In this document: piece by piece, positions 30,481-57,274 of the stretch
How positions within the stretch are numbered: position 1 is the stretch's first letter
How the letters are laid out: every line of letters starts with the position of its first letter
DNA from: Rhodobacter sp. SGA-6-6
Lineage (GTDB): Bacteria > Pseudomonadota > Alphaproteobacteria > Rhodobacterales > Rhodobacteraceae
Assembly (NCBI RefSeq): GCF_011043545.1
Contig: NZ_JAAKGP010000005.1
Coordinates: 1 to 64,000 of the forward strand
Length of the DNA stretch: 64,000 nucleotides
Direction: 5' to 3'
Program-made: the position numbers and the translations under genes
The notes under the pieces: generated by a model
The model's database searches: none
Seen by the model: only the letters and a program-made list of their open reading frames with translations
What the model was told of the DNA's origin: nothing

Positions 30481-31464
30481 TCACCCCATCACCGGAGCCG
30501 AAAGCTCCCGATGCATCGGCCTCAGCCCGAGCGCATCGCGCCTGGGTTCCAAGGCGGCGAATTCCGCCAGAAGCCAGTCGCGCACCTTCTGCACCGCCGG
30601 GCGGCCGAGCGCCGAGCGGCGCGCCACCAGCTGGTAGAACATGCCCGTCCGCAACAGGCGGCCGCCGGCAGGGACCAGCCCGCCGCTGAGGACCTCGCCC
30701 GCCACGACATGCCACCAGCCGAGCGCCACCCCCTGGCCCTTGATCGCGCCTTGGATCACCAGCGCATAATCGGAAAAGCTGAGTTCCGTCGCCTCCTGCA
30801 TCGGCCCGATCTCCATCGCTTCCAGAAAGCGCGGCCAGGGAATGCGCATCTTGCCCATCAGGCTGGCCAGGACCTGCCCCTTCAACCCCTCCGGCCCGTC
30901 GATGGGTCCGTGGTCGCGGCGATAGGCCGGGCTGCAGATCGGGATCACCACCTCGGGAACCAGCGGCCAGGCCACGGTCTCGCCGTCGTCGGGAGGGTCG
31001 TAGCGCAGGCCGATGTCGGCGGCGCCGAGCCGGCCGAGCGGCTCTCCATGGATCAGGTCCAGCCGCAGGGTGACTTCCGGCACGTCCCGGCGGAAGCGGT
31101 CGAACCGCGGCATGAGCCAGTGGATCGCAAAGGCCGAGGTGACCGAGACCGTCACCACCTCGGGGTCCTGGAGCCGGGTCTGGATCTCGCAGACGGCTTC
31201 CTCGATCCGGTCGAACCCGTCGCGCACGGCCCGATGGAGCAGGCGGCCCTCGGCCGTCAGCTCCAGCCCGCCGGAGCCGCGCAGGAACAGGCTGGTGCCG
31301 AGATGCCGCTCCAGCCGCGAGATCATCCGGCTGATCGCGGGCTGCGTCACGTTGAACTCGCGGGCGGCGAGGGTGAAGTTGCAATGCCTCGCGGCCGCCT
31401 CGAACATGAAGAGGGCGCCCGAAGAGGGCAGTCTGGCGCGCAGGGTCATCTGGGGTTCCGGCAT
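30481..31464 (-). CDS. LysR-family regulator (GcvA-like)
   Basis: A 327-residue LysR protein. The HTH reads SGALFMFEAAARHCNFTLAA, REFNVTQPAISRMISRLERH. The effector domain starts VVTVSVTSAFAIHWLMPRFD, the pattern of the GcvA-like subgroup. It is divergent from the flavin oxidoreductase/acyl-CoA ligase operon with a 117-base spacer and is the natural regulator of it. The ligand is not evident. Confidence 0.88.
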   Translation of the reverse strand: MPEPQMTLRARLPSSGALFMFEAAARHCNFTLAAREFNVTQPAISRMISRLERHLGTSLFLRGSGGLELTAEGRLLHRAVRDGFDRIEEAVCEIQTRLQDPEVVTVSVTSAFAIHWLMPRFDRFRRDVPEVTLRLDLIHGEPLGRLGAADIGLRYDPPDDGETVAWPLVPEVVIPICSPAYRRDHGPIDGPEGLKGQVLASLMGKMRIPWPRFLEAMEIGPMQEATELSFSDYALVIQGAIKGQGVALGWWHVVAGEVLSGGLVPAGGRLLRTGMFYQLVARRSALGRPAVQKVRDWLLAEFAALEPRRDALGLRPMHRELSAPVMG

Positions 31465-31581
31465 GATTTCAAGTTATGGCGATCCTACTATTTCTGCGCT
31501 GATCAGGGAATATGCCGGTGCTAAGGTGACTTCAGATATGGCCGTTCACCGGCGGCCGCCTGCCAGCAGGAAGTCCCCGAT

Positions 31582-33582
31582 TTGTCCGCCAGCTTTCCGC
31601 ACCTGTTCTCTCCGCTCGTCCTCCGGGGCCATGAGATCCGCAACCGCATCCTTTCGACCGGGCACCAGACCTGGCTGGCCGAGGGCAACCGGCCGGGCGA
31701 AGCCCTGATCGCCTACCACGAGGCGCGGGCGCGGGGCGGCGCCGGGCTGATCGTCAACGAGGCGGCGCGGTTCCACCCTTCGGCCATCGGCGAGGCGCCG
31801 GACCTGACGCTGATCCATGACGATGCCATCCCGCATTATGCGCGGCTGGCGGCGGCGGTGCATCGCCACGGCGCGAAGATCTTCGGCCAGTTGTCGCATC
31901 CCGGCCGGGTGACGCGGCGGATGACCGACGGGATGCGCGGCGTGGTCTGGGCGCCGTCGTCGGTGCCCGAGAACCGCTTCCATGTCGTGCCGCGCGAAAT
32001 GCCCGCCGAGATGGTGGCCGAGATCGTCGAGGCCGCCGGCGCCGCTGCCGGGCGCTACGCCGAGGCGGGCTATGACGGCGTGGAACTGATGGCGAGCCAT
32101 GGGCTGCTGTTCGCGCAATTCCTCAACCCGGCGGTGAACCGGCGCGAGGACATCTACGGCGGCAGCGAGGAGAACCGTCTGCGGCCGCTGCGCGAGGCGC
32201 TGATCGCGGTGCGGCGCGCGGTGGGCGAAGGGGTGGTCGTGGGCCTGCGGATTTCGGCCGACGAGGCCGAGGAGGGCGGGCTGGACCAGGACCGCGTTCT
32301 GGCGGTCTGCCGCAGGCTCGGCGACGAGGGGCTGGTCGATTACATCAACACCACGCTCGGCTCGATGGCGGGACCGGGGGCCTCGGTCCATGTCGCGCCG
32401 CCGATGGAGATGGCGCCGGCCTATGTCGCGCCGAAGGCGGCGGCGATCCGGGCACAGGTCTCGGTGCCGGTCTTCGTGGCCGGGCGGATCAACCAGCCGC
32501 AGGTGGCCGAGGCGGTGCTGGCGGCGGGACAGGCCGACATGTGCGGCATGACCCGGGCGATGATCGCCGACCCCGACATGGCGCGGAAGGCGCGCGAGGG
32601 CAGGGCCGAGGACATCCGCGCCTGTATCGGCTGCAACCAGGCCTGCATCGGCCATTTCCATGCCGGTTATCCGATTTCCTGCATCCAAAACCCGGTCTCG
32701 GGGCGCGAATTGCGCCTGCCGCCGGTGCCGCCCGCGGCACGCGCGCTGAAGGTGCTGGTCGCGGGGGCGGGACCGGCCGGGATGAAGGCCGCCGTCACCG
32801 CCGCCGAGATGGGGCATCAGGTGGTGCTGGCCGAGGCCGCCGCGCAGGCGGGCGGGCAGGCGCTGCTGGCCCAGCTTCTGCCCGACCGGGCCGAGTTCGG
32901 CGGGTTGGTGACCAACCTGCTGACCGAACTCCGCCTGCGTCAGGTCGACCTCCGCCTCAACACCCGCGTCGACGCCGCCCTGCTGCGGGCCGAGCGGCCG
33001 GATGCGCTGGTCATCGCCACCGGCTCCACCCCCTTCATGCCCCGGATCGAGGGCGGCGAGACCGGCGGCCATGTCGTCACCGCCGCCGAGGTGCTGACCG
33101 GCCGGGCCAGGCCCGGCGGCCGGGTGGTGATCGCCGACTGGCGCTGCGACCAGATCGGCGTCGGCCTGGCGGTGATGCTGGCGCGGCGCGGGCATCATGT
33201 CCGCCTTGCGGTCGCCGGAATCTGCGCGGGCCAGAACCTGCAGCAATATGTCCGCGACCTCTGGGCCGGGCGGCTGCACGAGGCGGGGATCGAGGTGATC
33301 CCCTATGCCCGCATCTACGGTGTCGACAAGGACACCGCCTGGTTTCTCCATACCGCCAGCGGCGCGGCCATCACGCTGGAAGGGGTGGAGACGCTGGTGC
33401 TGGTCGAGGGCAACACCCCCGACATGACGCTTCAGCGCGAGGTTGCCGGCTTGGGCATTCCCAGCATCACCGTCGGCGATTGCACCCTTGCCCGCACGGC
33501 CGAAGAGGCGATCCACGACGGGCTGGTGTTGACCCGCGGTTTCCTGGGCGGGCTTGCAGACCCGGCAGGAGAACGGGCATGA
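31582..33582 (+). CDS. FMN/4Fe-4S/FAD oxidoreductase (2,4-dienoyl-CoA reductase / N-demethylase family)
   Basis: A 666-residue two-domain enzyme. The N-terminal old-yellow-enzyme barrel (residues about 5-350) has FGQLSHPGR, GYDGVELMASHGLLFAQFLN and GMTRAMIADPDMARKA. The iron-sulfur ligands are CIGCNQACIGHFHAGYPISC. The C-terminal FAD/NAD domain begins KVLVAGAGPAGMKAAVTAAE. Relatives reduce 2,4-dienoyl-CoA or 2-enoates, or demethylate trimethylamine, dimethylglycine and N-methylprolines. The substrate cannot be chosen from sequence, though acyl-CoA neighbours favour an enoyl/dienoyl-type role. It uses a TTG start with AGGAAG upstream, and its stop overlaps the next gene (ATGA). Confidence 0.87.
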   Translation: MSASFPHLFSPLVLRGHEIRNRILSTGHQTWLAEGNRPGEALIAYHEARARGGAGLIVNEAARFHPSAIGEAPDLTLIHDDAIPHYARLAAAVHRHGAKIFGQLSHPGRVTRRMTDGMRGVVWAPSSVPENRFHVVPREMPAEMVAEIVEAAGAAAGRYAEAGYDGVELMASHGLLFAQFLNPAVNRREDIYGGSEENRLRPLREALIAVRRAVGEGVVVGLRISADEAEEGGLDQDRVLAVCRRLGDEGLVDYINTTLGSMAGPGASVHVAPPMEMAPAYVAPKAAAIRAQVSVPVFVAGRINQPQVAEAVLAAGQADMCGMTRAMIADPDMARKAREGRAEDIRACIGCNQACIGHFHAGYPISCIQNPVSGRELRLPPVPPAARALKVLVAGAGPAGMKAAVTAAEMGHQVVLAEAAAQAGGQALLAQLLPDRAEFGGLVTNLLTELRLRQVDLRLNTRVDAALLRAERPDALVIATGSTPFMPRIEGGETGGHVVTAAEVLTGRARPGGRVVIADWRCDQIGVGLAVMLARRGHHVRLAVAGICAGQNLQQYVRDLWAGRLHEAGIEVIPYARIYGVDKDTAWFLHTASGAAITLEGVETLVLVEGNTPDMTLQREVAGLGIPSITVGDCTLARTAEEAIHDGLVLTRGFLGGLADPAGERA

Positions 33583-35660
33583 GCGGCGTCCTTTCGGCCC
33601 TGTTGCGCCCCGACCGGCTGGCGATCGTGGGGGCCAGCCCGAAGGAGGGCAGCTTCGGCGCGAACCTGCTGCAATCCGTCCGCCATCTGGGTTTCGCGGG
33701 CGAGATCGCGCTGGTCAATCCGCGTTACGACCGGATCGGCGGCATGGCCTGCCACGGCAGCCTGGCCGAGGTGCCCGGAGGCGTGGATTGCGCCGCCTTC
33801 GCGGTGGGGGATGCGCATCTGGTGGCCTCGATGCTGGACGCCGCGGCGGCCGGCCTGCGCGGTGCCGTCCTGTTCGGCCGCGCCCATGGCGAGGAAGCAG
33901 GCCGCCCGCGCGCCGATCTGGTCCGCGAGATCGCGCGCAGTGCCGGAATGGCGGTCTGCGGCGCGAACTGCATGGGCTTCGTCAACCTCGGCCACCGGCT
34001 GCAGCTGACCGGGATGCCCTTCAAGGCGCTGCCCGCGCCCTCGGGGGTGGCGCTGATCTCGCATTCCGGCTCCAGCTGGTCGGGGCTGGTCGGCAACCGC
34101 CGGCAGATGGGCTTCGACTATGCGATCTCGGCCGGGCAGGAGCTGACGACCGGCGCTGCCGACTACATCCGCTTTCTCGTCGAAGACACCGAGGTGCGGG
34201 TGATCGCCTGCGTGCTGGAGACGGTCCGCGATCCCGCCGGTTTCCTTGCCGCCGCCGATCTGGCGCGGGCGAAGGGCGTGCCGGTCATCGTGCTGAAACT
34301 GGGGCGCAGCGCGGCGTCGAAGCAGTTCGCCATCTCGCATTCCGGCGCGCTTTCCGGGTCGAACGCCGCCTATGACGCGGCCTTCGCCCGCCATGGCGTG
34401 GTCCAGGTGCGCAGCCTCGACGAATTGCTGGATACCGCCGAGCTGATGGCCCTGCGCCGGATCATGCCCGCGCCCGGCATCGCGCTCGGCACCGATTCCG
34501 GCGGCGAGCGGCAGTTGATCGCCGACCTGGCCGCCGACCTGGGCTTGCCCTTCGCGGAACTGGCGCCGCAGACGCTTGCGGCGATCGATGCGCATCTCGA
34601 TCCGGGGATGGAGGCGTCGAATCCGCTCGACTACTGGGGCGACGGCGGCGACATCATGGCGCCGGTGCTGGGCGAGATGGCGAAGGACCCCGGCGTCGGC
34701 ATCGTGGTCATGGCCTCCAACCTGCCGCCCGACCGTCCCTTCTCGGACCAATCGGCGGCGGCCATCCTCAAGGTCCATGCCGGGACCGGCAAGCCGGTGG
34801 CGGTGATGGGAAACATCGCCACCACGCTTTCCCCCGCGGTCGCCGAGAGGTTGCGCGGGCATGGCATTGCGGTGCTGATGGGCACGGTCAGCGGGCTGGC
34901 CGCGCTCGGCCATCTGCGGCGCTGGTATTTCGGGTTTGCGACGGAGGATACCACCCCGCCGCTGCCGCTGTCGGCCGAAGCAGAGGCGCTTATCGCCGGG
35001 GCGGGCCGGGACATGCTGCGCAGCGCCGAGGGATTCCGGCTGCTGGAAGACGCCGGCATCCCCTGCGCCCCCTTCGCGGAAGTGCAAGGGCCGGAGGAGA
35101 TTGCCGCCTTCGCCGCCCGCCACGGCTGGCCGCTGGTGCTGAAGATCGACGATGCGGCCATTCCCCATAAATCCGATCTGGGCGGCGTCTTCCTGGGTCT
35201 TGGAAGCGCGGATGAGGCGGAGGCGGCGTGGACTGCGTTGCGGCTGCGCCATCCGCAGGCGCCGGTCATCGTGCAGGCCATGGTCCAGGGTGTGGAACTG
35301 ATCCTGGGCATGACCACCGACCCCGATTTCGGGCCGCTGGTCACGCTGGGCCTCGGCGGCGTCTTCACCGAGATCTTCCGCGACACCACGGCGCTTCTGC
35401 CGCCGTTCAGCCCCGAGACCGCCCGGTCTGCGCTGGAGGGGCTGACGGCCTTTCCGCTGCTGACCGGCGCCCGCGGCCGCCCGCCCGCCGATCTGGAGGC
35501 GCTCTGCGCCCTGATCTCGCGGTTCAGCGCCTTTGCCGCCGGCGCCGCGGGCCGGATCGCCGAGATCGAGATCAACCCGGTGCTTGCCGGGCCGGAGGGG
35601 GCGCTTGCCGTCGACTGCCTTGCCCTGCGCCAGAAGGAGAAGCCGCACCATGAGCACTGA
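33579..35660 (+). CDS. ADP-forming acyl-CoA ligase (fused alpha-beta)
   Basis: A 693-residue enzyme of the acetate:CoA ligase (ADP-forming)/succinyl-CoA-synthetase-like superfamily. It has an N-terminal CoA-binding domain (LAIVGASPKEGSFGANLL), a flavodoxin-like ligase domain with the phospho-His region (ALISHSGSSWSGLV and FAISHSGALSGSN), and a C-terminal ATP-grasp domain (PLVLKIDDAAIPHKSDLGGV, EIEINPVLA). It activates a carboxylate with CoA and ATP. Members include acetate, pimelate-like and hydroxycinnamate ligases, so the substrate is open. Translation is coupled on both sides: it overlaps the upstream gene by 4 and the downstream gene by 11 bases. Confidence 0.87.
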   Translation: MSGVLSALLRPDRLAIVGASPKEGSFGANLLQSVRHLGFAGEIALVNPRYDRIGGMACHGSLAEVPGGVDCAAFAVGDAHLVASMLDAAAAGLRGAVLFGRAHGEEAGRPRADLVREIARSAGMAVCGANCMGFVNLGHRLQLTGMPFKALPAPSGVALISHSGSSWSGLVGNRRQMGFDYAISAGQELTTGAADYIRFLVEDTEVRVIACVLETVRDPAGFLAAADLARAKGVPVIVLKLGRSAASKQFAISHSGALSGSNAAYDAAFARHGVVQVRSLDELLDTAELMALRRIMPAPGIALGTDSGGERQLIADLAADLGLPFAELAPQTLAAIDAHLDPGMEASNPLDYWGDGGDIMAPVLGEMAKDPGVGIVVMASNLPPDRPFSDQSAAAILKVHAGTGKPVAVMGNIATTLSPAVAERLRGHGIAVLMGTVSGLAALGHLRRWYFGFATEDTTPPLPLSAEAEALIAGAGRDMLRSAEGFRLLEDAGIPCAPFAEVQGPEEIAAFAARHGWPLVLKIDDAAIPHKSDLGGVFLGLGSADEAEAAWTALRLRHPQAPVIVQAMVQGVELILGMTTDPDFGPLVTLGLGGVFTEIFRDTTALLPPFSPETARSALEGLTAFPLLTGARGRPPADLEALCALISRFSAFAAGAAGRIAEIEINPVLAGPEGALAVDCLALRQKEKPHHEH

Positions 35661-36462
35661 CTACGAGACGATCCGCGTGGAGCTTTCCGACGAGGGGGTC
35701 GCCCATATCATCCTCAACCGCCCCCGGGTGCTGAACGCGATCAACTCGGTGATGATGCGCGAGGTGAACGAGGTGTTGGACGCGCTGGAACGCGACCCGG
35801 CGGTGCGCTGCTTCATCCTGTCGGGCGAGGGCAGGGCCTTCTCGGCCGGCTTCGATCTGAAGGAATCCGCCGCCGCGGGCGAGCGGACGGTGCAGGACTG
35901 GCGCCGGGTGCTGGAGGCCGACTTCGATTTCGTGATGCGGTTCTGGGATTGTCCGAAGCCGACGATCTCGGCCATCCACGGCCACTGCATCGGCGGCGGG
36001 CTGGAACTGGCCGCGGCCTGCGACATCGCCATCGCCGGCGAGGATGCGGTCTTCGGTGAGCCCGAGGTGCGGTTCGGCTCGGGCATCGTCGCCATGCTGC
36101 TGCCCTGGATGGTGGCGCCGAAACACGCCAAGGACATCCTCTTGACCGGCAACGACCAGATCGGCGCCACCCGGGCGGCCGAGATCGGCCTGGTGACCGA
36201 GGCGGTCTGGGAAGGCCATCATGTCGAGCGGGCCTTCGAGAAGGCGCGCGAGATCGTCGCGGCGGCGCCCCTGTCGGTGGAACTGACCAAGCGGGCGATC
36301 AACCGCAGCTACGACATCCGCGGGATGCGCAATGCGCTGCTGGCGGCGGTGGAGACCGACATCGTGATCGAAACCTCCGGCGGGGCCGAGCGCGCCGAAT
36401 TCAACCGCATCCGCCGGGAAGAGGGGCTGAAGGCCGCCATCGCCTGGCGCAACAGCCGCTGA
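35650..36462 (+). CDS. Enoyl-CoA hydratase/isomerase family protein
   Basis: A 270-residue crotonase. The oxyanion loop reads GRAFSAGFDLKE and HGHCIGGGLELAAACDIAIA. Both catalytic Glu of hydratases are present (GGLELAA and FGEPEVRFG), so hydration of an enoyl-CoA is likely. ATG 35650 lies inside the end of the ligase gene and starts the conserved region. A ligase directly followed by a crotonase also occurs in hydroxycinnamate (feruloyl-CoA) pathways, which is an alternative to ordinary beta-oxidation. It is last in its operon and converges on the fadB-like gene. Confidence 0.88.
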   Translation: MSTDYETIRVELSDEGVAHIILNRPRVLNAINSVMMREVNEVLDALERDPAVRCFILSGEGRAFSAGFDLKESAAAGERTVQDWRRVLEADFDFVMRFWDCPKPTISAIHGHCIGGGLELAAACDIAIAGEDAVFGEPEVRFGSGIVAMLLPWMVAPKHAKDILLTGNDQIGATRAAEIGLVTEAVWEGHHVERAFEKAREIVAAAPLSVELTKRAINRSYDIRGMRNALLAAVETDIVIETSGGAERAEFNRIRREEGLKAAIAWRNSR

Positions 36463-36484
36463 CCGAAGGCGCCGGGCAGCCGCC

Positions 36485-36507
36485 AGGTGATCGCTCGGCG
36501 ATCACCT
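36485..36507. terminator. Hairpin between convergent operons
   Basis: AGGTGATCGC-TCG-GCGATCACCT is a perfect 10-bp stem with a 3-base loop. It overlaps the stop codon of the minus-strand fadB-like gene and lies 22 bases after the enoyl-CoA hydratase stop. It can act in both directions, although there is no long T-run. Confidence 0.55.
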
Positions 36508-38466
36508 TTCCGGGCGGACGGTTCCGCGCGCGCTGCAGAACATCGGCCCGCCCTTGGGGCGGGGGAAACCGTAGCCGTGGACCTCGACAAGGTCGATGTC
36601 TTCCGGCGTGGCGGCGATGCCTTCGGCAAGGATTTTGCGCCCTTCGTCCGCCATGACGCCGACCAGAGCCGCGGCGATGTCCGCGGCCGGCATCTCGCGC
36701 GCGCCCTTGCGATACGGGGCAAGCAGCGCCGCCACCTGCTGCGACGGCAGCGGCTCGCGGCTGCCCGGGGCGTAGTCATACCACCCGCCGCCGGTTTTCT
36801 GGCCCAGCCTGCCCGCGCGCACCAGAATGTCGCCCGCCGTTTCCGGCACGTCCCGGCCAAGGGCGCGCGCCGTCTCCCGCGCGCGGAAGGCGACATCCAG
36901 CCCGGCCATGTCCTGCATCTCGAACGGACCCATGGCGAAGCCGAAGCCGCGCATCGCGGCGTCGATCCCGGCCGGGGAGATGCCGTCGCGCAGCATCGCC
37001 TCGGCCCCGGCGCGGTAACGCAGCAGGATGCGGTTGCCGATGAAGCCCTCGCAGTTTCCCGCCCGCACCGCGACCTTGCCCAGCCTGCGGGCCAGGTCGA
37101 AGCCGGTGGCGACCACTTCGGGGCCGGTCGCCGTGAGGGGAACGATCTCGAGCAGTTTCATCACCTGGGCGGGACTGAAGAAATGCAGGGCGATGAACCG
37201 CTCCTGCCCCGGCAGCCCGCGGACGATCTCTTCGGGGTCGAGGTAGGAGGTATTGGTGGCCAGGATCGTCTCGCGGCCGCAGACCTCGGCCAGCCGTGCG
37301 AAGACCTCGCGCTTGAGGGTGAGGTCCTCGAACACGGCCTCGATGACCAGATCGCAGCCGGCAAGCCCGGCAGGATCGGTTATGCCGGTGACGGCCTCGC
37401 GTCTGGCGCGGGCGGCGGCCTCGTCGTGCAGGCCGCGTTTCACCTGCGTCGCCAGGATGCCGTCGAGCCGGTCCATGGCGCGGGCGAGCGGGGCCTCGCC
37501 GGTTTCGGACAGCACGACCCGCAGCCCGGCATTGGCCAGCGCCGCGGCGATGCCGGCGCCCATCGTGCCGCCGCCGACCACGCCGACGCGGCCGAGGGGG
37601 CGGGGGGCGATCCCGCGCAGGGCGGCGGGCCTGGCCGCCGCGCGTTCGGCGAAGAACAGGTAGCGCAGCGCTGCGGCCTCGTCCGAATTGCGCAACTTCA
37701 GGAAGGTCTCCCGTTCCAGGCGCATCCCGGCCTCGAACCCTGCCGAAATGCCGTGGCGCAGGACGGCCAGCGCCGCCGCCGGTGCGGGATTGCCGCGCGC
37801 GGCCTTGGCGATGCGGGCGCCGGCGGCGGACCAGAAGGCCTCGCCCGGATCGGCCAGGTCCTTCTGCCGTGCGCCGGGATGCCGGGCCTTGCCGGACACC
37901 TCCTGCGCGAAGGCGAGGGCGTCGGCGATCAGGTCCGCACCGGCCAGCCGGTCGGCAAGGCCCGCGGCCAGCGCCTCGGCCGCGTCCATCTGGCGGTTCG
38001 TTGTGATCATCTCCACCGCCGCCGCCACGCCGATGAGACGCGGCAGCCTCTGGGTGCCGCCCGCCCCGGGGATGATCCCGAGCGCCGTTTCCGGCAGGCC
38101 GAACCGCGCGCCGGAGGCGGCGATGCGGTAGTGGCAGCCAAGGGCAAGCTCGGCCCCGCCGCCGAGGGCCGGTCCGTTGACGGCGGCGATCCAGGGCTTC
38201 GCCGCCGCCTCGATCGCGGCGATCACATCGGGCAGGTGCGGAGCCTCGGGCGGGCGGTCGAATTCCGTTATGTCGGCGCCGCCGACGAAAAGCCGGCCCG
38301 CCCCGGTCAGGATCGCGGCGCGGATCGCCGGGTCGCGGCCGACCTCGGCGATCACTTCGCCCAACTGCCGGCGCAGCGCCCGGCCGAGGGCGTTCACCGG
38401 AGGATTGTCGAGGGTGACGACGGCGATGCCGTCCCGGTCCTGCCGGGTGAGGAGCGTTGCGGTCAT
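36502..38466 (-). CDS. Bifunctional enoyl-CoA hydratase / 3-hydroxyacyl-CoA dehydrogenase
   Basis: A 654-residue FadB/FadJ-like enzyme for steps two and three of beta-oxidation. The N-terminal crotonase domain has GPALGGGAELALGCHYRIAA and GLPETALGIIPGAGG with both catalytic Glu. The dehydrogenase domain starts VGVVGGGTMGAGIAAALANA and holds the catalytic His in FIALHFFSPAQVMKLLEIV. A C-terminal 3HCDH domain ends the protein. It is slightly shorter than E. coli FadB (about 730). ATG 38466 overlaps the thiolase gene by four bases, so the two are coupled. Confidence 0.92.
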   Translation of the reverse strand: MTATLLTRQDRDGIAVVTLDNPPVNALGRALRRQLGEVIAEVGRDPAIRAAILTGAGRLFVGGADITEFDRPPEAPHLPDVIAAIEAAAKPWIAAVNGPALGGGAELALGCHYRIAASGARFGLPETALGIIPGAGGTQRLPRLIGVAAAVEMITTNRQMDAAEALAAGLADRLAGADLIADALAFAQEVSGKARHPGARQKDLADPGEAFWSAAGARIAKAARGNPAPAAALAVLRHGISAGFEAGMRLERETFLKLRNSDEAAALRYLFFAERAAARPAALRGIAPRPLGRVGVVGGGTMGAGIAAALANAGLRVVLSETGEAPLARAMDRLDGILATQVKRGLHDEAAARARREAVTGITDPAGLAGCDLVIEAVFEDLTLKREVFARLAEVCGRETILATNTSYLDPEEIVRGLPGQERFIALHFFSPAQVMKLLEIVPLTATGPEVVATGFDLARRLGKVAVRAGNCEGFIGNRILLRYRAGAEAMLRDGISPAGIDAAMRGFGFAMGPFEMQDMAGLDVAFRARETARALGRDVPETAGDILVRAGRLGQKTGGGWYDYAPGSREPLPSQQVAALLAPYRKGAREMPAADIAAALVGVMADEGRKILAEGIAATPEDIDLVEVHGYGFPRPKGGPMFCSARGTVRPER

Positions 38467-39677: not shown

Positions 39678-39762
39678 GGCGGGTCTCCGGAGGGGGCGCG
39701 ACGTCGGACCGCCGATGGAGGGCGGTCGATGGGCGAGGATAACCACGATCTTTCCGCCGTCG

Positions 39763-39798
39763 CAACATTTCTGATTGATCGGGCAATCAGAAATGTTG
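39763..39798. promoter_or_regulatory. TetR-type operator between the thiolase and aminotransferase genes
   Basis: CAACATTTCTGATTG (39763-39777) and its exact complement CAATCAGAAATGTTG (39784-39798) flank six bases. The core GATTGATCGGGCAATC (39773-39788) matches GATTGATCGGTCAATC at 50262-50277 in 15 of 16 positions. The BetI operator in E. coli has the same ATTGA...TCAAT character. A TTGACT -35-like box (39796-39801) follows for the plus-strand operon. Binding by the TetR protein encoded at 47.1 kb is inferred. Confidence 0.75.
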
Positions 39799-47719: not shown

Positions 47720-47735
47720 GGGGCGGCGAGGGGCC

Positions 47736-48770: not shown

Positions 48771-48778
48771 CGGGGGCC

Positions 48779-50209: not shown

Positions 50210-50261
50210 GGCAGGAAGGGCTTTCGGCAAGGGGAAGGCAGCGCCATTAAACGCATTGCTC

Positions 50262-50277
50262 GATTGATCGGTCAATC
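50262..50277. promoter_or_regulatory. TetR-type operator between the amidase and importer operons
   Basis: GATTGATCGGTCAATC, a near-perfect 16-bp palindrome. It equals the core at 39773-39788 in 15 of 16 positions and ends six bases before the TTGACA of the importer promoter. Confidence 0.75.
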
Positions 50278-50283
50278 AGTTTG

Positions 50284-50311
50284 TTGACAGGTTTCCGTTT
50301 CGGGGTATTGT
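50284..50311 (+). promoter_or_regulatory. Promoter of the peptide-type importer operon
   Basis: TTGACA (50284-50289), a 16-base spacer and TATTGT (50306-50311). It stands 96 bases before the first importer gene and directly beside the palindromic operator. Confidence 0.6.
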
Positions 50312-50406
50312 CGGATTCACGAGTTGGCCGATGCTCGCCGAAGCTGCGCAAGACAGCCGGAAACTGGCCGGATTTCAACGGCAACCACGTCTGACAGGGT
50401 AACGAC

Positions 50407-52014
50407 ATGAACGAATCGCACCACCGCCAGATGGATGATCTGGCCAGCCGACTGCGCCGCGGCCAGATCTCGCGCCGCGCGTTTCTGGCGCAAAGCGCAG
50501 CCCTGCTTGCCAGCGGCGCCCTGGCCGGCATTCCGGGCATCGCGCGCGCGCAAGGAGGCGAGCCGAAATCGGGCGGCTTCATGCGGCTCGGCCTGCACAA
50601 TGCCTCGCAGAACGACAACCTGGACCCGGGCACCTGGTCCACCAGCTGGACCGGCGCGGGGTTCAACGGCGCGGTCTACAACAACCTGGTCGAGATCCTG
50701 CCCGACGGCTCGGCCGAGGGCGACCTGGCCGAAAGCTGGGAGACCGGCGCGGGTGCCACGGTCTGGCGCTTCACCCTGCGCAAGGGCATCACCTTCCACG
50801 ACGGCCGCAGCCTGACCGCCGAGGATGTCCGCCAGTCCTTCCTGCATCACATGAAGCCCGACTCGACCTCGGGCGCGCGGGCCATCGTCCAGCAGATCGC
50901 GGACATCCAGATCGAAGGCTCGGATGTCGTGGTCTTCACCCTGTCCGAAGGCAATGCCGACTTCCCCTATCTGCTGTCGGATTATCACCTCTCGGTCTTC
51001 CCGGCGCTGGAGGGCGGCGGCATCGACACCACCTCCGGCATGGGCACCGGCGCCTTCCTGCTGGACAGCTTCGAGCCGGGCATCGCCCTGCGGCTGGTGC
51101 GCAACCCGAACTACCACAAGAACAACAAGCCCTATCTGGACGAGGTGGAATTCATCTCGGTCCCCGACGCCACCGCGCGGCTGAACGCGCTGCTGACCGG
51201 CGAGGTCGATTTCATCCAGGACGTCGACATCCGCAACGTGCCGATGATCGAGGGCAGCGCCGACTTCCATGTCCAGCGCGTGCCGGGGCTGCGGCATTTC
51301 TCCTTCGACATGGACACCCGCGTCGCGCCCTTCGACAACCCCGACGTGCGGCTGGCGCTGAAATATGCGCTGGACCGCGACGACGTGATCGAGAAGGTCT
51401 TCCTGGGCGAGGGGCGCAAAGGCAACGACAACCCGGTGTCGCAGATCCAGAAGTTCTGGCACGAGATGCCGCAGCGCGACTACAGCGTCGAGAAGGCGAA
51501 GGAGCATCTGGCCAAGGCCGGGATGGACAGCGTGTCGGTCGATCTGCATGTGGCCGAGAACGCCTTCGCCGGTGCGATCGAGGCGGCGGTGCTGTATCAG
51601 GAACATGCTGCAGCGGCGGGGATCAGCATCAACGTCGTGCGCGAGGCGGCCGACGGCTATTGGGAGAACGTCTGGCTGAAGAAGCCCTTCGCCGCGGTGG
51701 ACTGGTTCGGCCGGGCCACGGTGGACTGGCTGTTCTCGACCATCTACACCACCGGGGCGCCGTGGAACGCGGGCTGGTCCAACGCGCGTTTCGACGAGTT
51801 GCACGCCCTGGCCCGCGCCGAGACCGACGATGCCAAGCGGACGGCCTATTACGCCGAGATGCAGCAGATCGTGCATGACGACGGCAACATCCTGACGGTG
51901 GCTTTCGTCGACTGGCGCAACGCGATCTCGAACAAGATCGGCTATGGCGAGGTCGGCGGGCTGATGCCGCTGGACAACATGCGGATCTGCGAACGCTGGT
52001 GGCGCAAGGACTGA
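50407..52014 (+). CDS. Dipeptide/oligopeptide-type ABC binding protein, copy 1
   Basis: A 535-residue family 5 solute-binding protein. A twin-arginine signal (SRRAFLAQSAALLASGAL) ends near ARAQG. Family motifs include LAESWETGAGATVWRFTLRK, FHDGRSLTAEDVRQS, GTGAFLLDSFEPG and VRNPNYH. Such proteins bind peptides, nickel chelates, glycosides or other amides. With amidase and acetylpolyamine deacetylase divergently encoded, an amide-linked compound is a reasonable ligand. It is first in the operon and is closely related to the next gene. Confidence 0.92.
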   Translation: MNESHHRQMDDLASRLRRGQISRRAFLAQSAALLASGALAGIPGIARAQGGEPKSGGFMRLGLHNASQNDNLDPGTWSTSWTGAGFNGAVYNNLVEILPDGSAEGDLAESWETGAGATVWRFTLRKGITFHDGRSLTAEDVRQSFLHHMKPDSTSGARAIVQQIADIQIEGSDVVVFTLSEGNADFPYLLSDYHLSVFPALEGGGIDTTSGMGTGAFLLDSFEPGIALRLVRNPNYHKNNKPYLDEVEFISVPDATARLNALLTGEVDFIQDVDIRNVPMIEGSADFHVQRVPGLRHFSFDMDTRVAPFDNPDVRLALKYALDRDDVIEKVFLGEGRKGNDNPVSQIQKFWHEMPQRDYSVEKAKEHLAKAGMDSVSVDLHVAENAFAGAIEAAVLYQEHAAAAGISINVVREAADGYWENVWLKKPFAAVDWFGRATVDWLFSTIYTTGAPWNAGWSNARFDELHALARAETDDAKRTAYYAEMQQIVHDDGNILTVAFVDWRNAISNKIGYGEVGGLMPLDNMRICERWWRKD

Positions 52015-52070
52015 CCGGCCGGGCGCAAGGGGCGCGGCCTCTGGGGGGCCTGTCCCGACGACTGCCGGTT

Positions 52071-52091
52071 GCCCGCCCGATGCGGGCGGGC
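52071..52091 (+). terminator. Hairpin between the two binding-protein genes
   Basis: GCCCGCCC-GATGC-GGGCGGGC, a perfect 8-bp stem within the 128-base gap, without T-run. It may cause partial termination or protect the upstream mRNA. Confidence 0.5.
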
Positions 52092-52142
52092 CGCCGGCGG
52101 CGCAACATCAGACGACGTTCTCATCCAGGGGGAGGAAACCCG

Positions 52143-53747
52143 ATGCGAGATTCCGGGACCGTGTCCGGCAGGCTGGCCCTGCGCTCTTTCACCGCCATGG
52201 CGCCGTCGCGGCGCGGGTTCCTGGGCGGTGCCGCCCTGGCGGCGGGGGCGTTCTTCATGCCCGCCTCCCTTGCCGCGCAGGAGGGGCCGAAACAGGGCGG
52301 CACCCTGCGCTACGGGATGAACGACGGCTCGCAGCAGGACACGCTGGAGCCGGGAAGCTGGAGCACGGTGATGTGCGGCGCGGCCTTCAACGGTGCGCTC
52401 TGCAACAACCTGGTCGAGCTTCTGCCCGATGGATCGCTGGCCGGGGACCTGGCCGAAAGCTGGGAGGGCGCCGAGGGCGCGACCCGCTGGACCTTCATTC
52501 TGCGCAAGGGGGTGAAATTCCACGACGGCCGCCCCTTCACCGCCGAGGATGCGCGCCAGTCGCTTTTGCATCACATGGGCGAGGAAAGCACCTCGGGCGC
52601 GTTGGCCATCGTCGGCCAGATCGCCGACATCGCGGTGGAGGGCGAGGACCGGCTGGTCGTCACGCTTTCGCAGGGCAATGCCGACTTCCCCTACCTGCTG
52701 TCGGACTACCATCTGTCGATCTTCCCGGCGAAGGACGGCGGCGGCATCGACTGGGAAAGCGGCATCGGCACCGGCGCCTTCCGGCTGGAAAGCTTCGAGC
52801 CGGGGATCGCCGTGCGCCTTGTCCGCAACCCCGACTACCACAAGCCCGGCCTGCCGCATTTCGATGCGGTGGAATTCATCAACATCCCCGACAGCACCGC
52901 GCGGCTGAACGCCCTGCTGACCGGCGAGGTCGACGTGATCGAGGATGTCGACATCCGCAACGTTGCGCTGATCGAGGGCAACCAGGGGTTCAAGGTCCAC
53001 CGCACCCCCAGTCTGCGGCACCTGACCTTCGACATGAACTGCTCTGTCGCGCCCTTCGACAATCCGGCGGTGCGCAAGGCGCTGAAGCTGGCCATCGACC
53101 GCGAGGACATCATCGCCAAGGTCTTCCTCGGCGAGGGTGAGGCGGGCAACGACAACCCGGTGGCGCCGATCATGCCGCTCTGGGCCGAGACCCCGCCGCC
53201 GCACCGCTACGACCCGGAAGCCGCCCGCGCCCTGCTGGCCGAGGCCGGGATCGAGGGGCTGACCGTCGATCTTTCCACCGCCGAATCCGCCTTTCCCGGG
53301 GCGATCGAGGCGGCGGTTCTGTTCCGCGAACATGCGGCCAAGGCGGGGATCACCGTCAACGTGGTGCAGGAGGCGGACGACGGCTACTGGGACAATGTCT
53401 GGCTGAAGAAGCCGTTCAACGCCTCGGACTGGTATGGGCGCGTCACGCTCGACTGGCTGTTCGCCACCTCCTACACCTCGGACTCGCCGTGGAACAACAC
53501 CGGCTTCCACAACGCGCGCTTCGACGAGCTGCACGGGCTGGCCCAAGCGGAAAGCGACGAGGCGGTGCGTAGGGCGCAATATGCCGAGATGCAGCAGATC
53601 CTGCATGACGAGGGCGGGGTGATCACCGTGGCTTTCGTCAGCTGGCGGCTCGCCATGACGGAAAACATCGGTCATGCTGAGACGGGCGGCATCCTGCCCG
53701 CCGACAACCACCGCTGCGCCGAACGCTGGTGGCGCAGCGACGTGTGA
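52143..53747 (+). CDS. Dipeptide/oligopeptide-type ABC binding protein, copy 2
   Basis: A 534-residue paralogue of the preceding protein; well over half of the residues agree by eye over the whole mature length (for example GNADFPYLLSDYHLS, TARLNALLTGEVD, DDGYWDNVWLKKPF against EAADGYWENVWLKKPF). The signal is twin-arginine type (PSRRGFLGGAALAAGAFFMP). GGAGGAAA precedes ATG 52143; the frame is open further upstream but has no SD there. The pair arose by tandem duplication and probably feeds the same permease with different ligands or affinities. Confidence 0.92.
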   Translation: MRDSGTVSGRLALRSFTAMAPSRRGFLGGAALAAGAFFMPASLAAQEGPKQGGTLRYGMNDGSQQDTLEPGSWSTVMCGAAFNGALCNNLVELLPDGSLAGDLAESWEGAEGATRWTFILRKGVKFHDGRPFTAEDARQSLLHHMGEESTSGALAIVGQIADIAVEGEDRLVVTLSQGNADFPYLLSDYHLSIFPAKDGGGIDWESGIGTGAFRLESFEPGIAVRLVRNPDYHKPGLPHFDAVEFINIPDSTARLNALLTGEVDVIEDVDIRNVALIEGNQGFKVHRTPSLRHLTFDMNCSVAPFDNPAVRKALKLAIDREDIIAKVFLGEGEAGNDNPVAPIMPLWAETPPPHRYDPEAARALLAEAGIEGLTVDLSTAESAFPGAIEAAVLFREHAAKAGITVNVVQEADDGYWDNVWLKKPFNASDWYGRVTLDWLFATSYTSDSPWNNTGFHNARFDELHGLAQAESDEAVRRAQYAEMQQILHDEGGVITVAFVSWRLAMTENIGHAETGGILPADNHRCAERWWRSDV

Positions 53748-53796
53748 CGGCCGGCGGCAGCCCCATGGAAATACGGTTCACCGGAGAGACCAGAGT

Positions 53797-54762
53797 ATGC
53801 GCATGACCTCCCATCCGATCCTGTCCATGGTGATCGGTCGGATCGGTCTGGGGCTTCTCAGCCTGCTGATCGTCTCTCTGGTGATCTTCTTCTCGGTCGA
53901 GCTGCTGCCGGGCAGCTATGCCTCCGCCATTCTCGGCCAGACCGCCACGCCCGAGGCGGTGGCGGCGATGGAAGAGAAGCTGGGGCTGAACCAGCCCGCG
54001 GTCCTGCGCTACCTCGCCTGGCTGGGCGGGGCGGCGACCGGCGATCTGGGCATGTCCTTCGCCGGGCGCCCGGTGATGACGGTGCTGGGGCCGCGGCTGA
54101 TGAACACCGTCTCCTTGGCCGCCATCACCGCGCTGATCGCCGTGCCGCTGGCAATCATGCTGGGCATCCTCTGCGCCCGGTTCCGGGGGCGGTTCATCGA
54201 CCGTTTCCTGTCCACCTCGACCCTGGCCTCGATCTCGGTGCCGGAGTTCTTCGTGGCCTATGTGGTGATGATGGTGCTGGCGGTGAAGCTGCAATGGTTC
54301 CCCTCGATGGCGGGCATCCGCAACAGCATGGACTTCGGCGAGCAGCTTTACCGCATGGTGCTGCCGATCCTGACCCTGCTTCTGGTGATCCTTGCGCATA
54401 TGGTGCGCAACACGCGGGCGGCGATCCTGTCCGTCATGGCCAGCCCCTATGTCGAGATGGCCCGGCTGAAGGGCGAACCCGAAGGCCGCGTCGTCATGCG
54501 CCAGGCGCTGCCCAATGCCATCGGCCCCATCGCCAGCGTGGTGGCGCTGAACCTTGCCTACCTGATCTCGGGCGTGGTCGTGATCGAGGTCGTCTTCGTC
54601 TACCCCGGTGTGGGCCAGGCGATGATCGACGCCGTGCGCAACCGCGACGTTCCGGTGATCCAGGCCTGCGCGCTGATCTTCGCCACCGCCTACATCGGCT
54701 TCAACCTGATCGCCGACATCATCTCCATCGTCAGCAATCCGCGCCTGCTGCATCCGCGCTGA
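53797..54762 (+). CDS. Peptide-type ABC permease (DppB-like)
   Basis: A 321-residue permease. The N-terminal helix GLGLLSLLIVSLVIFFSVEL is followed by the family's periplasmic loop (LPGSYASAILGQTATPEAVA) and a six-helix core. The EAA loop is EMARLKGEPEGRVVMRQALP with NAIGPIASVVALNLAYLISG. A Shine-Dalgarno-like GGAGAGA lies before ATG 53797; ATG 53803 is an alternative. It partners the next gene product. Confidence 0.92.
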   Translation: MRMTSHPILSMVIGRIGLGLLSLLIVSLVIFFSVELLPGSYASAILGQTATPEAVAAMEEKLGLNQPAVLRYLAWLGGAATGDLGMSFAGRPVMTVLGPRLMNTVSLAAITALIAVPLAIMLGILCARFRGRFIDRFLSTSTLASISVPEFFVAYVVMMVLAVKLQWFPSMAGIRNSMDFGEQLYRMVLPILTLLLVILAHMVRNTRAAILSVMASPYVEMARLKGEPEGRVVMRQALPNAIGPIASVVALNLAYLISGVVVIEVVFVYPGVGQAMIDAVRNRDVPVIQACALIFATAYIGFNLIADIISIVSNPRLLHPR

Positions 54763-54769
54763 GGACACC

Positions 54770-55645
54770 ATGGACCAAAGCTTTGACGCCCGCTCCGTCC
54801 CCGGCCGCCTGACCCGCGCCCTGCGGCTGATCGGCCAGGCCCCGCTTACCGCGAAGTTCGGCATGGTTGTCGTGGCCGCCTATGCCTTCGTCGCGGTCTT
54901 CGCGCCCTGGCTTGCCCCCTATGACGAGGTCGAGGTGGTCTCGCGCATCCCCTTCGACGGCTGGAGCGCCGAGCATCTCTTGGGCACCGACCAGCTTGGC
55001 CGGGATTTCCTGTCGCGGCTGATCTACGGTGCGCGCAATTCGATCTCGATCGCGCTGGTCACCACGGTGATCTCCTTCGTCATCGGCTGCCTCCTGGGCA
55101 TGTTCGCGGCGCTGGTGGGCGGCATCGTCGACCAGATCATTTCCCGCATCGTCGATGCGCTGATGTCGGTGCCGGACCTGATCTTCATCCTGATGATCCT
55201 GTCGATCTTCGGCTCGTCCATTCCCAACCTGATCCTGATCATCGCCATCCTGACCTCGACCCGGTTCTTCCGCATCGCCCGGGCGGCGGCGCTGAACGTG
55301 GCCAGCCTCGATTTCGTCGAGGCGGCGAAGGTGAGGGGCGAAAGCCTGTTGTGGATCTCGGTCAACGAGATCTTTCCCAACATCCTGCCGCTGATCCTGT
55401 CGGAACTGGGGATGCGGTTCTGCTTCATCTTCCTGTCCATCGCCGCGCTGTCCTTCCTGGGCGTCGGCATCCAGCCGCCGACGGCGGAATGGGGCTCGAT
55501 GGTCCGCGACAATGCCGCGCTGATCAACATGGGCGACATCACCCCGCTGATCCCGGCGGCCGCCATCGCCTTCCTCGCCATCGCGGTGAATTTCGTCGTC
55601 GACTGGCTCCTGAACCGCGCCAGCGGCCTGAACGAGGAGGGCTGA
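54770..55645 (+). CDS. Peptide-type ABC permease (DppC-like)
   Basis: A 291-residue permease with an N-terminal helix (FGMVVVAAYAFVAVFAPWLA), the DppC motif LLGTDQLGRDFLSRLIYGAR, and the EAA loop FVEAAKVRGESLLWISVNEI. It starts seven bases after dppB-like and ends three bases before the ATPase gene, within one transcript. Confidence 0.93.
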   Translation: MDQSFDARSVPGRLTRALRLIGQAPLTAKFGMVVVAAYAFVAVFAPWLAPYDEVEVVSRIPFDGWSAEHLLGTDQLGRDFLSRLIYGARNSISIALVTTVISFVIGCLLGMFAALVGGIVDQIISRIVDALMSVPDLIFILMILSIFGSSIPNLILIIAILTSTRFFRIARAAALNVASLDFVEAAKVRGESLLWISVNEIFPNILPLILSELGMRFCFIFLSIAALSFLGVGIQPPTAEWGSMVRDNAALINMGDITPLIPAAAIAFLAIAVNFVVDWLLNRASGLNEEG

Positions 55646-55648
55646 GCC

Positions 55649-57274
55649 ATGACCGTCACGGCAGAAGCCGCCCCGGTGCTGGAGGTCCGGGATCTTCGGA
55701 TCGACGCGAAATCCAACGACCGCTGGTCGCAGATCGTCAAGGGCGTCAGCTTCGCCATCCGCCCGGGCGAGGTGCTGGGGCTGGTGGGCGAATCCGGCGC
55801 CGGGAAGTCCACCATCGGCCTTGCGGCGCTTGGCTACCTGCGCCCCGGCGCGCGGGCCTCGGGCGGCACGGTGCGGCTTCTGGGCACGGAACTGCTGGCG
55901 ATCCCGGAAGAGGAACGCCGCCCACTGCGTGGCACGAAGGTCGCCTATGTCGCGCAAAGCGCCCAGGCCGCCTTCAACCCCGCGCATCGGCTGATGGACC
56001 AGATCACCATGGTCGCGGTGGACCGCGGCGGGCTGACGCGCGCGGTTGCGGAAAAACGGGCGGTCGACCTGTTCGCGGCGCTCCAGCTTCCCGATCCGCA
56101 GAGCTTCGGGTCGCGCTATCCGCATCAGGTCTCGGGCGGGCAGCTGCAGCGGGCCATGGTCGCCATGGCGATGATCTGCAATCCGGCGCTGATCGTCTTC
56201 GACGAACCCACCACCGCGCTGGACGTGACCACCCAGGTCGAGGTGCTGATCTCGATCCGCAAGGTGATCGAGGATTTCGGCGTGGCCGCGATCTACATCA
56301 CCCACGACCTGGCGGTTGTGGCGCAGATCGCGCATCGGGTCGCCGTGCTGCGCTACGGCGAGGTGGTGGAAGAGGCCCCCATCGCCGAGATCATGGACAA
56401 TCCGCAGCATCCCTACACCAAGAGCCTCTGGGCGGTGCACGAGATGCCGGCGGAGCCGTCGGGCGCGCATGGTGCGAAGGGGCAGCCGCTGCTGTCGGTC
56501 GAGACGCTTTCGGCGCATTACCAGGATTTCCAGGTGCTGAAGGACATCGAGCTGGCCATCGGCCGCGGCGAGACGGTGGCGCTGGTGGGCGAATCCGGCT
56601 CGGGGAAATCGACGCTGGGGCGGGTGATCACCGGGCTGAAGGAACCGTCGCAGGGTCGGATCGTCTTCGACGGCAAGCCGCTGCCCGAGAAGGTGCGCCA
56701 GCGCTCGCTGGAGCTGCTGCGGCGCATCCAGATCATCTATCAGTCCGCGGATACCGCGCTCAACCCGCGGCAGACCGTCCGCAAGATCGTCGGGCGGCCG
56801 CTGACGCTGTATCAGGGGCTGCGCGGCGCGGCGCGCGAGGCGCGGGTGGCCGAACTGCTGAGGATGGTCGAACTGGACGAGACCCATGCCGACCGCCTGC
56901 CGGGCCAGCTTTCGGGCGGGCAGAAGCAGCGCGTGGCGATCGCGCGCGCGCTGGCCGCCGGCCCCGACCTGATCATCTGCGACGAGATCACTTCGGCGCT
57001 GGACAAGGTGGTCCAGGCCGAGGTGCTGCGGATGCTGATCGGCCTGCAGGACAGGCTCGGCGTGTCCTATCTCTTCATCACCCACGACATCGAGGTGGTG
57101 CGCGCCATCGCCGACCGGGTGGTGGTCATGCAGCACGGCGGCATCGTCGAGCAGGGCGGCAAGGAAGAGGTCTTCTCGCCCCCCCACGCGCCCTATACCG
57201 GCAAGCTGCTGGCCTCGGTGCCGGACATGGCGGTCGGCTGGCTGGACCGCATCATGGCCGCACGCGCGGTCTGA
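55649..57274 (+). CDS. Fused peptide-type ABC ATPase (DppD-DppF)
   Basis: A 541-residue protein with two complete ATPase domains. Domain 1 has GESGAGKST, VSGGQLQRAMVAMAM and IVFDEPTTALD. Domain 2 has GESGSGKST, LSGGQKQRVAIARALA and IICDEITSALD. In the classical operon these are separate DppD and DppF proteins. One polypeptide therefore supplies both ATPase sites of the importer. Each half carries its own H-loop (ITHDLAVVA, ITHDIEVVR). It is the last gene of the operon, convergent with the XRE-cupin gene. Confidence 0.93.
   Translation: MTVTAEAAPVLEVRDLRIDAKSNDRWSQIVKGVSFAIRPGEVLGLVGESGAGKSTIGLAALGYLRPGARASGGTVRLLGTELLAIPEEERRPLRGTKVAYVAQSAQAAFNPAHRLMDQITMVAVDRGGLTRAVAEKRAVDLFAALQLPDPQSFGSRYPHQVSGGQLQRAMVAMAMICNPALIVFDEPTTALDVTTQVEVLISIRKVIEDFGVAAIYITHDLAVVAQIAHRVAVLRYGEVVEEAPIAEIMDNPQHPYTKSLWAVHEMPAEPSGAHGAKGQPLLSVETLSAHYQDFQVLKDIELAIGRGETVALVGESGSGKSTLGRVITGLKEPSQGRIVFDGKPLPEKVRQRSLELLRRIQIIYQSADTALNPRQTVRKIVGRPLTLYQGLRGAAREARVAELLRMVELDETHADRLPGQLSGGQKQRVAIARALAAGPDLIICDEITSALDKVVQAEVLRMLIGLQDRLGVSYLFITHDIEVVRAIADRVVVMQHGGIVEQGGKEEVFSPPHAPYTGKLLASVPDMAVGWLDRIMAARAV

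Follow-up and report, generated by a model that had tools for sequence, protein, structure and literature searches.

Gene content and organisation of the locus

We analysed a stretch of 64,000 nucleotides from Rhodobacter sp. SGA-6-6 (contig NZ_JAAKGP010000005.1, positions 1 to 64,000; hereafter the window), which belongs to a genome of 4.29 Mb in 67 contigs (G000). Positions 30,481 to 57,274 contain genes for import, deacylation, transamination, oxidation and CoA activation of what is probably a small amine. Open reading frames (ORFs) were called by codon-position GC content, and the proteins were scanned with Pfam and NCBIfam. The following features were identified:

30481..31464, minus strand: LysR regulator, GcvA-like (Pfam HTH_1 and LysR_substrate), divergent from the OYE gene
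31582..33582, plus strand: OYE-type FMN/FeS/FAD reductase, mycofactocin-OYE_2 / BaiCD / 2,4-dienoyl-CoA reductase-like (Oxidored_FMN and Pyr_redox_2; TIGR03997 577.6 bits, under the cut-off of 793; top PDB match 1ps9)
33579..35660, plus strand: NDP(ADP)-forming acyl-CoA ligase, NDP-ligase (CoA_binding_2, Succ_CoA_lig, ATP-grasp_5)
35650..36462, plus strand: enoyl-CoA hydratase, ECH (ECH_1, E 4e-45)
36502..38466, minus strand: FadB/FadJ-like hydratase/3-hydroxyacyl-CoA dehydrogenase (ECH_1, 3HCDH_N and 3HCDH; under the FadB/FadJ equivalog cut-offs)
38463..39677, minus strand: thiolase of the PcaF/PaaJ type (TIGR02430 and NF006551, above cut-off)
39773..39788: predicted operator palindrome GATTGATCGGGCAATC in the thiolase/AT gap, its 12-bp flanks symmetric at 10 of 12 positions
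39893..41284, plus strand: class III aminotransferase, AT, of the PRK07036 type (NF005447, 716.9 against a cut-off of 618 bits)
41325..42812, plus strand: PuuC/KauB-like aldehyde dehydrogenase, ALDH (Aldedh, E 7e-166)
42883..44532, plus strand: AMP-forming acyl-CoA ligase, ACS (AMP-binding and C-terminal domain)
44529..46124, plus strand: CrtO/PYROXD2-like FAD oxidoreductase (Amino_oxidase, E 8e-19; NF045689 278 bits, cut-off of 1000 missed)
46129..46992, plus strand: AH2, amidohydrolase-fold protein (Amidohydro_2, E 2e-36)
47054..47719, plus strand: BetI-like TetR regulator (TetR_N and TetR_C_6; BetI model 103.9 against a cut-off of 201.3)
47736..48770, minus strand: acetylpolyamine amidohydrolase, APAH, of the histone-deacetylase fold (Hist_deacetyl, E 9e-68)
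48779..50210, minus strand: amidase-signature amidase (Amidase, E 3e-86)
50262..50277: second predicted operator palindrome GATTGATCGGTCAATC, in the amidase/SBP1 gap
50407..52014, plus strand: solute-binding protein 1, SBP1, family 5 (SBP_bac_5, E 3e-73)
52142..53747, plus strand: solute-binding protein 2, SBP2, family 5 (SBP_bac_5), a tandem paralogue with 65% identity to SBP1
53803..54762, plus strand: Dpp-type permease DppB (BPD_transp_1)
54770..55645, plus strand: Dpp-type permease DppC (BPD_transp_1)
55649..57274, plus strand: fused Dpp-type ATPase DppDF (ABC_tran, 2 stretches)

The PYROXD2 likeness of the CrtO-like protein is an assumption that we carry over from a first-pass annotation of this DNA. 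All the genes which that annotation had listed were recovered in place, AH2 and the regulators being additions to its list, and the two acyl-CoA ligases do differ as it had said, one belonging to the ADP-forming ATP-grasp type and the other to the AMP-forming superfamily.

Genes overlap or are spaced by at most about 130 bp inside OYE-NDP-ligase-ECH, thiolase-FadB, AT-ALDH-ACS-CrtO-AH2-TetR, APAH-amidase and SBP1-SBP2-DppB-C-DF, and ECH/FadB and TetR/APAH form convergent pairs. The genes form several units: LysR/OYE-NDP-ligase-ECH; FadB-thiolase; and AT-ALDH-ACS-CrtO-AH2-TetR together with APAH-amidase and the importer.

Distribution of the gene cluster

We investigated the distribution of the cluster in loci collected via AH2, keeping the best 80 of 386 AH2 relatives in the named collection as loci. 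Several of these stop at a contig end, so that the counts are lower bounds, and several share a genus (Caballeronia, Bosea, Mesorhizobium), so that they are not independent. ACS (at least 40% identity) was found in 72 of the 80 loci, in 65 of them within 3 kb of AH2, and ALDH (at least 60%), the CrtO-like enzyme (at least 45%) and ACS occurred together in 27. The search of related genomes for the same gene set, which the first-pass annotation had proposed, recovered AT, APAH and amidase (each at least 60%) in 10 of the 80 loci, in the window order in nine and rearranged in L141, and additionally on plasmid pLA6_002 and in locus L039. One cluster (L142) has a single binding protein. As a control, we fetched 40 loci around other matches to the PRK07036 AT model and left out two, L039 (a full cluster) and L058 (a paralogue in the source genome); none of the remaining 38 contained AH2, or ACS, the CrtO-like enzyme, ALDH or APAH at identities of at least 40%, 45%, 60% and 60%, respectively. 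Because the gene set recurs in other loci and none of it was found in the control loci, its association is more than chance.

Within the genus, AH2 was identified in 3 of 13 genomes (own genome counted). Across a sample of the class, 36 of 385 genomes had a match at E 1e-30, 12 of them at 45% identity or more (own genome included) and the other 24 at 30-39%. The cluster is inherited patchily among bacteria. Of 13 non-identical full clusters, counting the window, 7 have FadB and/or a thiolase next to AT, in a gene order that varies.

We additionally identified layouts without AT, in which ALDH, a Pot importer, ACS, the CrtO-like gene and AH2 stand together (for example in Paraburkholderia xenovorans LB400, Methylobacterium and Azospirillum), as well as the arrangements Pot importer-ACS-amidase-AH2 in Bosea, and Pot importer and DAO-like oxidase with ACS-AH2-amidase in Sulfitobacter. 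Across these layouts AH2 with ACS appears to be the most constant element. Hydantoinase A/B-like and gamma-glutamyltransferase-like ORFs, recognised by eye, lie near AH2 in two loci (L119 3530-7284 and 17643-19376; L117 14732-16441).

In Paracoccaceae bacterium La 6, plasmid pLA6_002 (CP031587; L228) has a full cluster in a single 26-kb run. AH2 (74% identity), the CrtO-like enzyme (69%), ACS (71%), ALDH (81%) and AT (74%) are accompanied there by an acyl-CoA dehydrogenase, an NDP-ligase (37% to that of the window), two GcvA-like LysR genes, an OYE (60%), a choline-dehydrogenase-like enzyme, a Dpp importer with one binding protein, amidase, APAH, a NylB'-annotated beta-lactamase-family protein and TetR; no FadB or thiolase match was found in the run. 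A plasmid search with the NDP-ligase returned a single record, this plasmid. In the source genome itself we identified a second cluster (L058; contig C1, 614700-634600) with AT (70%), TetR (48%), an NDP-ligase, an acyl-CoA dehydrogenase and a Pot importer. Compared with La 6, the identity is 52% for the ligase and 73% for the dehydrogenase; compared with the window, it is 39% for the ligase.

The NylB'-annotated protein of the La 6 cluster adjoins APAH (L228 21847-23061). The region in the window has neighbours of its own: directly before it (23247-30404) lie a COX1-family oxidase subunit, a CtaG-like assembly factor and a PQQ-type dehydrogenase, and next door on the other side (57353-63946) a PuuR-like HTH-cupin regulator, a Pot-type importer, a cupin and a DAO-like oxidase form a second, separate polyamine-type unit.

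A palindrome shared between operons

The palindrome GATTG-N6-CAATC occurs in exactly two perfect copies in the window, in the thiolase/AT and the amidase/SBP1 gaps, against a mean of 0.05 in shuffled sequences, none of 100 shuffles reaching two. The 18-base form TGATTGATCGGNCAATCA has two sites in the 4.29-Mb genome at up to two mismatches, and a reversed-pattern control has none. Searched at up to three mismatches, the 16-base form gave five matches in the window against a mean of 1.14, these being the two sites, each matched on both strands, plus one unrelated position. The gap between the LysR and OYE genes contains no palindrome.

Among 247 loci, the exact pattern was found in 25, comprising full clusters, contig-end pieces (L123, L136), short re-fetches, an AT-TetR pair (L043/L014), and L065 and L202, in which we take it as chance. 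Both places are kept in 13 other full-cluster loci, 12 of them non-identical (from Cereibacter, Paracoccus, Tabrizicola, Mesorhizobium and others; L124 equals L140 in sequence, and L039/L131 and L134/L135 are 95% identical pairs). In each of the 13, the distance from the gene's tblastn start to its site is 89-187 bp for AT and 40-57 bp for the amidase. The palindrome is absent from L118, L156 and L180, which are partial clusters without any TetR match found. In L043 it is flanked by AT (77%) and a TetR relative (63%), tying the site to that TetR. We propose the BetI-like TetR as the owner of the palindrome, and the AT operon, the amidase/APAH genes and the importer are predicted to form one regulon with a common operator.

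Symmetry at 9-10 of 12 flank positions is seen at the AT site in five of the seven loci in which FadB or thiolase adjoins AT (window, L039, L131, L134 and L135, not L132 and L142), and in none of the seven loci without them, the random background for at least 8 symmetric positions being 0.8%. After merging of identical and 95% identical loci, these figures become three of five and none of six. As flank symmetry tracks the adjoining FadB or thiolase gene, control of the FadB-thiolase operon by the palindrome is likely, and this operon likely belongs to the AT regulon. The extended arms of the AT site in the window look as if two divergent -35 regions overlap there.

Enzymes predicted to act on the amine

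The top PDB match of AT is 3i5t (E 4e-286, 952 bits), which we take to be a Rhodobacter sphaeroides protein, and among the matches of named function a putrescine aminotransferase ranks highest (355 bits). Far down the ranking stands 6g4b (286 bits), presumably the 6-aminohexanoate transaminase of Pseudomonas jessenii. ALDH is closest in PDB to KauB (6b4r, 652.6 bits). The amidase finds an aryl acylamidase first (E 2e-57) and the 6-aminohexanoate-cyclic-dimer hydrolase 16th, and falls under the cut-off of all 25 NCBIfam models among the matches listed. The 6-aminohexanoate or nylon substrate suggested by the first-pass annotation is thus disfavoured, since neither AT nor amidase is closest to the known 6-aminohexanoate enzymes.

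Four PDB sequences named as APAH match the window protein at E 5.2e-107 or below. It reads EDPIS in both alignments, placing PIS where HDAC10 has its PEG gatekeeper, a feature of APAH cluster 4 (PMC11532494), and at position 117 its residue is a non-acidic one, Ser, opposite Gly117 of 9gkz; both PIS and a non-acidic residue 117 are found in a characterised acetyl-diamine deacetylase (PMC11532494). From the fitting residues at 106, 117 and PIS, we infer that 9gkz is the PsApaH of that paper. The Glu106 associated with N8-acetylspermidine selectivity in one member is replaced by an aligned Pro, which concerns specificity and not membership, because the promiscuous PsApaH has His there (PMC11532494). 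In these two residue features APAH agrees with the group of acetyl-diamine/polyamine deacetylases.

The thiolase and the NDP-ligase branch

The window thiolase scores 680.7 bits with TIGR02430 (cut-off 597) and 684.9 with NF006551 (cut-off 605), and is the only TIGR02430 match above cut-off in its genome, as is the cluster thiolase in G094, the genome of L039. The L142 and G094 thiolases also pass TIGR02430, and one thiolase above cut-off was found in G585, its position relative to AT not being established. The PaaA family was absent from all four cluster genomes tested, and intradiol dioxygenase from three of the four. A C6 dicarboxyl end product is possible, the evidence for it being the thiolase family. 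Of the C6 dicarboxyl-CoA end point proposed in the first-pass annotation, the PcaF-type family assignment holds, above its cut-offs; the product itself is unproven because family membership, its sole basis, cannot tell thiolase specificity, and because the upstream DNA covered shows no such gene next to AT in 6 of 13 non-identical full clusters.

The NDP-ligase has as its top PDB match 7cm9, named as a DMSP (dimethylsulfoniopropionate) lyase (E 4e-87), and contains a conserved SHSGA(L/I) histidine loop, which we take to be its phosphohistidine loop. In L219 and L220 the OYE-NDP-ligase-ECH trio stands on a stretch without the AT block, and in the window LysR-OYE-NDP-ligase-ECH appears to be a separate control unit without the operator. 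As the first-pass annotation had noted, there is no acyl-CoA dehydrogenase (PF00441) match in the window; ten are present elsewhere in the genome. It had offered the PYROXD2-like or OYE-type enzyme for this step. An acyl-CoA dehydrogenase adjoins the NDP-ligase in both the La 6 cluster and L058, indicating that neither flavoenzyme need replace it. For these linked dehydrogenases an acryloyl-CoA reductase model ranks first, below its cut-off. AcuI-like reductases, recognised by eye, lie near NDP-ligase/ECH pairs in two loci (L221 12561-13649; L222 7983-8972), a hint at acryloyl-CoA.

The ACS-AH2 pair

The top PDB match of ACS is a feruloyl-CoA synthetase (E 5e-57). Metal-dependent Amidohydro_2 enzymes carry HxH on strand 1, His on strands 5 and 6, and Asp on strand 8. 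In an alignment of AH2 with its relatives, on strand assignments that we assume, all 12 sequences (window included) keep the strand-5 His and lose the strand-1 His, strand-6 His and strand-8 Asp. Four further relatives share 33-36% identity; in three of them the strand-6 His and the strand-8 Asp are retained, but neither the strand-1 pair nor the strand-5 His. An AlphaFold model of AH2 (mean pLDDT 87) is closest, among the 50 fold matches listed, to 3irs, followed by decarboxylases and other superfamily members at 13-18% identity. As 3irs is uncharacterised and the others are distant, we assign AH2 no function, and claim only a predicted amidohydrolase fold with apparent loss of the usual metal ligands.

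In the open-licence literature, where one narrow query bears on this pair, we found no described function for ACS with AH2. They may form an undescribed two-enzyme module in which ACS makes the CoA ester of an acid derived from an amine or amide and AH2 acts on this ester, for example by amine removal or ring opening, so that the cluster would be a polyamine-type route via CoA, bypassing gamma-glutamylation and polyamine oxidases; this is speculative and rather unlikely. The pair of a CoA ligase with a metal-less amidohydrolase-fold protein recurs in Alphaproteobacteria and Burkholderiales.

A predicted regulon for acylated amines

The gene set, its conservation and the common palindrome can be read from the DNA. 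Upon these we base the interpretation that the cluster is an inducible regulon that breaks down small amines in amide form, most probably N-acylated di- or polyamines; to this we assign a probability of about 0.6. In this model the BetI-like TetR would repress the AT, amidase/APAH and importer operons via GATTG-N6-CAATC until the inducer amine is present, and the divergent FadB-thiolase operon in those loci that have it. The Dpp-type importer would take up the acylated amine, APAH and amidase release the free amine, AT convert it to an aldehyde, and the KauB-like ALDH oxidise this to an acid, of which ACS would form the CoA ester. The CrtO-like flavoenzyme and AH2 would carry out one or two unnamed steps, with FadB and the PcaF-type thiolase completing breakdown via beta-oxidation, and the LysR-linked OYE-NDP-ligase-ECH genes may be an accessory, second branch for CoA activation and enoyl-CoA handling. 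The general order of import, deacylation, transamination, oxidation, CoA activation and beta-oxidation is well supported. The first-pass annotation had drawn one catabolic chain through the region. Its set of steps from amine or amide to acid to CoA ester is borne out by the operator, the APAH residues, the KauB-like ALDH and the FadB or thiolase genes in 7 of 13 clusters, while its single continuous linear pathway is not, as LysR-OYE-NDP-ligase-ECH is separate and without the operator.

Several observations weigh against this interpretation. When one mismatch is allowed in the ten fixed palindrome bases, there are two matches in the window against a shuffle mean of 1.79, not beyond chance, and the case for an operator therefore rests on the exact copies, their position and their conservation. 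Six of 13 non-identical full clusters (L137-L141, L228) yielded neither FadB nor thiolase next to AT, with upstream DNA searched over 1.2 kb from AT in L140 and 3.7-4.3 kb in L137-L139, L141 and L228. ALDH-ACS-CrtO-AH2 operons with Pot-type importers occur without AT or APAH, so that the substrate of the core need not be an acylated diamine. ALDH misses the PuuC equivalog cut-off (597.6 against 850 bits), as does the CrtO-like enzyme its own. Finally, one cluster genome (G583) has two TIGR02430 thiolases above cut-off, whose positions relative to AT are not established, and the source genome has one weak intradiol dioxygenase match (44 bits).

Three other explanations were weighed. The genes may be a set of adjacent catabolic modules that were acquired independently and serve different substrates, such as a hydroxycinnamate-like CoA module beside a polyamine module, and not one pathway. 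The occurrence of OYE-NDP-ligase-ECH apart from AT in L219 and L220, its lack of the palindrome, and the feruloyl-CoA synthetase match of ACS agree with this, but within the genus the genomes with an NDP-ligase relative of at least 69% identity are those with AH2 (3 of 13, including the source genome; a fourth, G587, lacks AH2 and has a relative of 53%), and an OYE and two GcvA-like LysR genes stand inside the La 6 cluster; on balance we consider it rather improbable. A reading confined to hydroxycinnamates, raised by the same ACS match, was dropped: the operator is common to AT, amidase and importer, and both APAH and ALDH suggest an amine substrate.

Alternatively, a C6 amine or omega-amino acid (1,6-diaminohexane, 6-aminohexanoate) could pass via adipate, adipyl-CoA and 3-oxoadipyl-CoA to succinyl-CoA and acetyl-CoA. 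The thiolase adjoins AT in the window, L039, L132, L134, L135 (cut by a contig end) and L142, the three thiolases tested pass TIGR02430, PaaA is lacking from the four genomes, and the order of steps matches the caprolactam-induced proteins described for P. jessenii (PMC6061476). The low rank of 6g4b for AT (286 bits, against 952 for 3i5t and 355 for the putrescine aminotransferase), the 16th rank of the cyclic-dimer hydrolase for the amidase, the six clusters in which FadB and thiolase were not found beside AT, and the unexplained AH2 and CrtO-like enzyme make this route unlikely. Less likely again is a C3 route, in which oxidation of the amine via its aldehyde would yield an N-substituted beta-alanine (from aminopropyl polyamines) or a betaine analogue, whose CoA ester would beta-eliminate its amine to give acryloyl-CoA for ECH and reductases. 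The top PDB match of the NDP-ligase is DddX, which makes acryloyl-CoA from DMSP (PMC8163506), and the linked dehydrogenases and AcuI-like reductases point the same way. However, NCBIfam covers these families with few models, which gives a best match little weight, and a PcaF-type thiolase would not be needed.

If the acylated-amine regulon is real, its predicted operator defines it, and the substrate could be found by simple reporter screening; the proposed pathway would add a CoA-based branch to amine catabolism.

Comparison with known systems

No described system or chemistry like the cluster was found in the open-licence literature. The closest fold to AH2, and its only PDB sequence match at E 1e-5, is BB4693, a TIM-barrel protein of Bordetella bronchiseptica (3irs), which is itself uncharacterised and so lends AH2 no function. 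The ATP-dependent DMSP lyase DddX is of the same superfamily as the NDP-ligase, whose SHSGA(L/I) loop would be a further likeness, but there is no DMSP context here; its catalytic residue is Glu432, with aromatic residues at 391 and 435 (PMC8163506). In KauB/PuuC oxidation of polyamine aldehydes ALDH finds its closest PDB relative, KauB, yet it stays under the PuuC cut-off, and no match to the glutamylation enzymes (the PuuA glutamine-synthetase or PuuD type) was found among the region genes scanned.

For the use of acetylpolyamines, Pseudomonas aeruginosa has deacetylases (PA0321, PA1409) of the same superfamily as APAH, and disruption of either gene reduces and delays growth on acetylputrescine and acetylcadaverine (PMC4784309). 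The available part of that account mentions no CoA-ligase, CrtO-like or AH2 partner. No Pfam match to a hydantoinase-like caprolactamase was found among the genes scanned at 30.5-57.3 kb. Such an enzyme, together with a putative CoA-transferase, belongs to the caprolactam/6-aminohexanoate pathway of P. jessenii, which resembles the present cluster in that an omega-aminotransferase and aldehyde dehydrogenase are clustered with CoA activation, beta-oxidation and a thiolase (PMC6061476). Here, in contrast, CoA ligases, APAH, amidase, a Dpp importer, the CrtO-like enzyme and AH2 are present, and the P. jessenii transaminase is not what AT matches most closely. We regard the cluster as a novel variant of the amine-transamination pathways already described, in which the ACS-AH2-CrtO core is unexplained.

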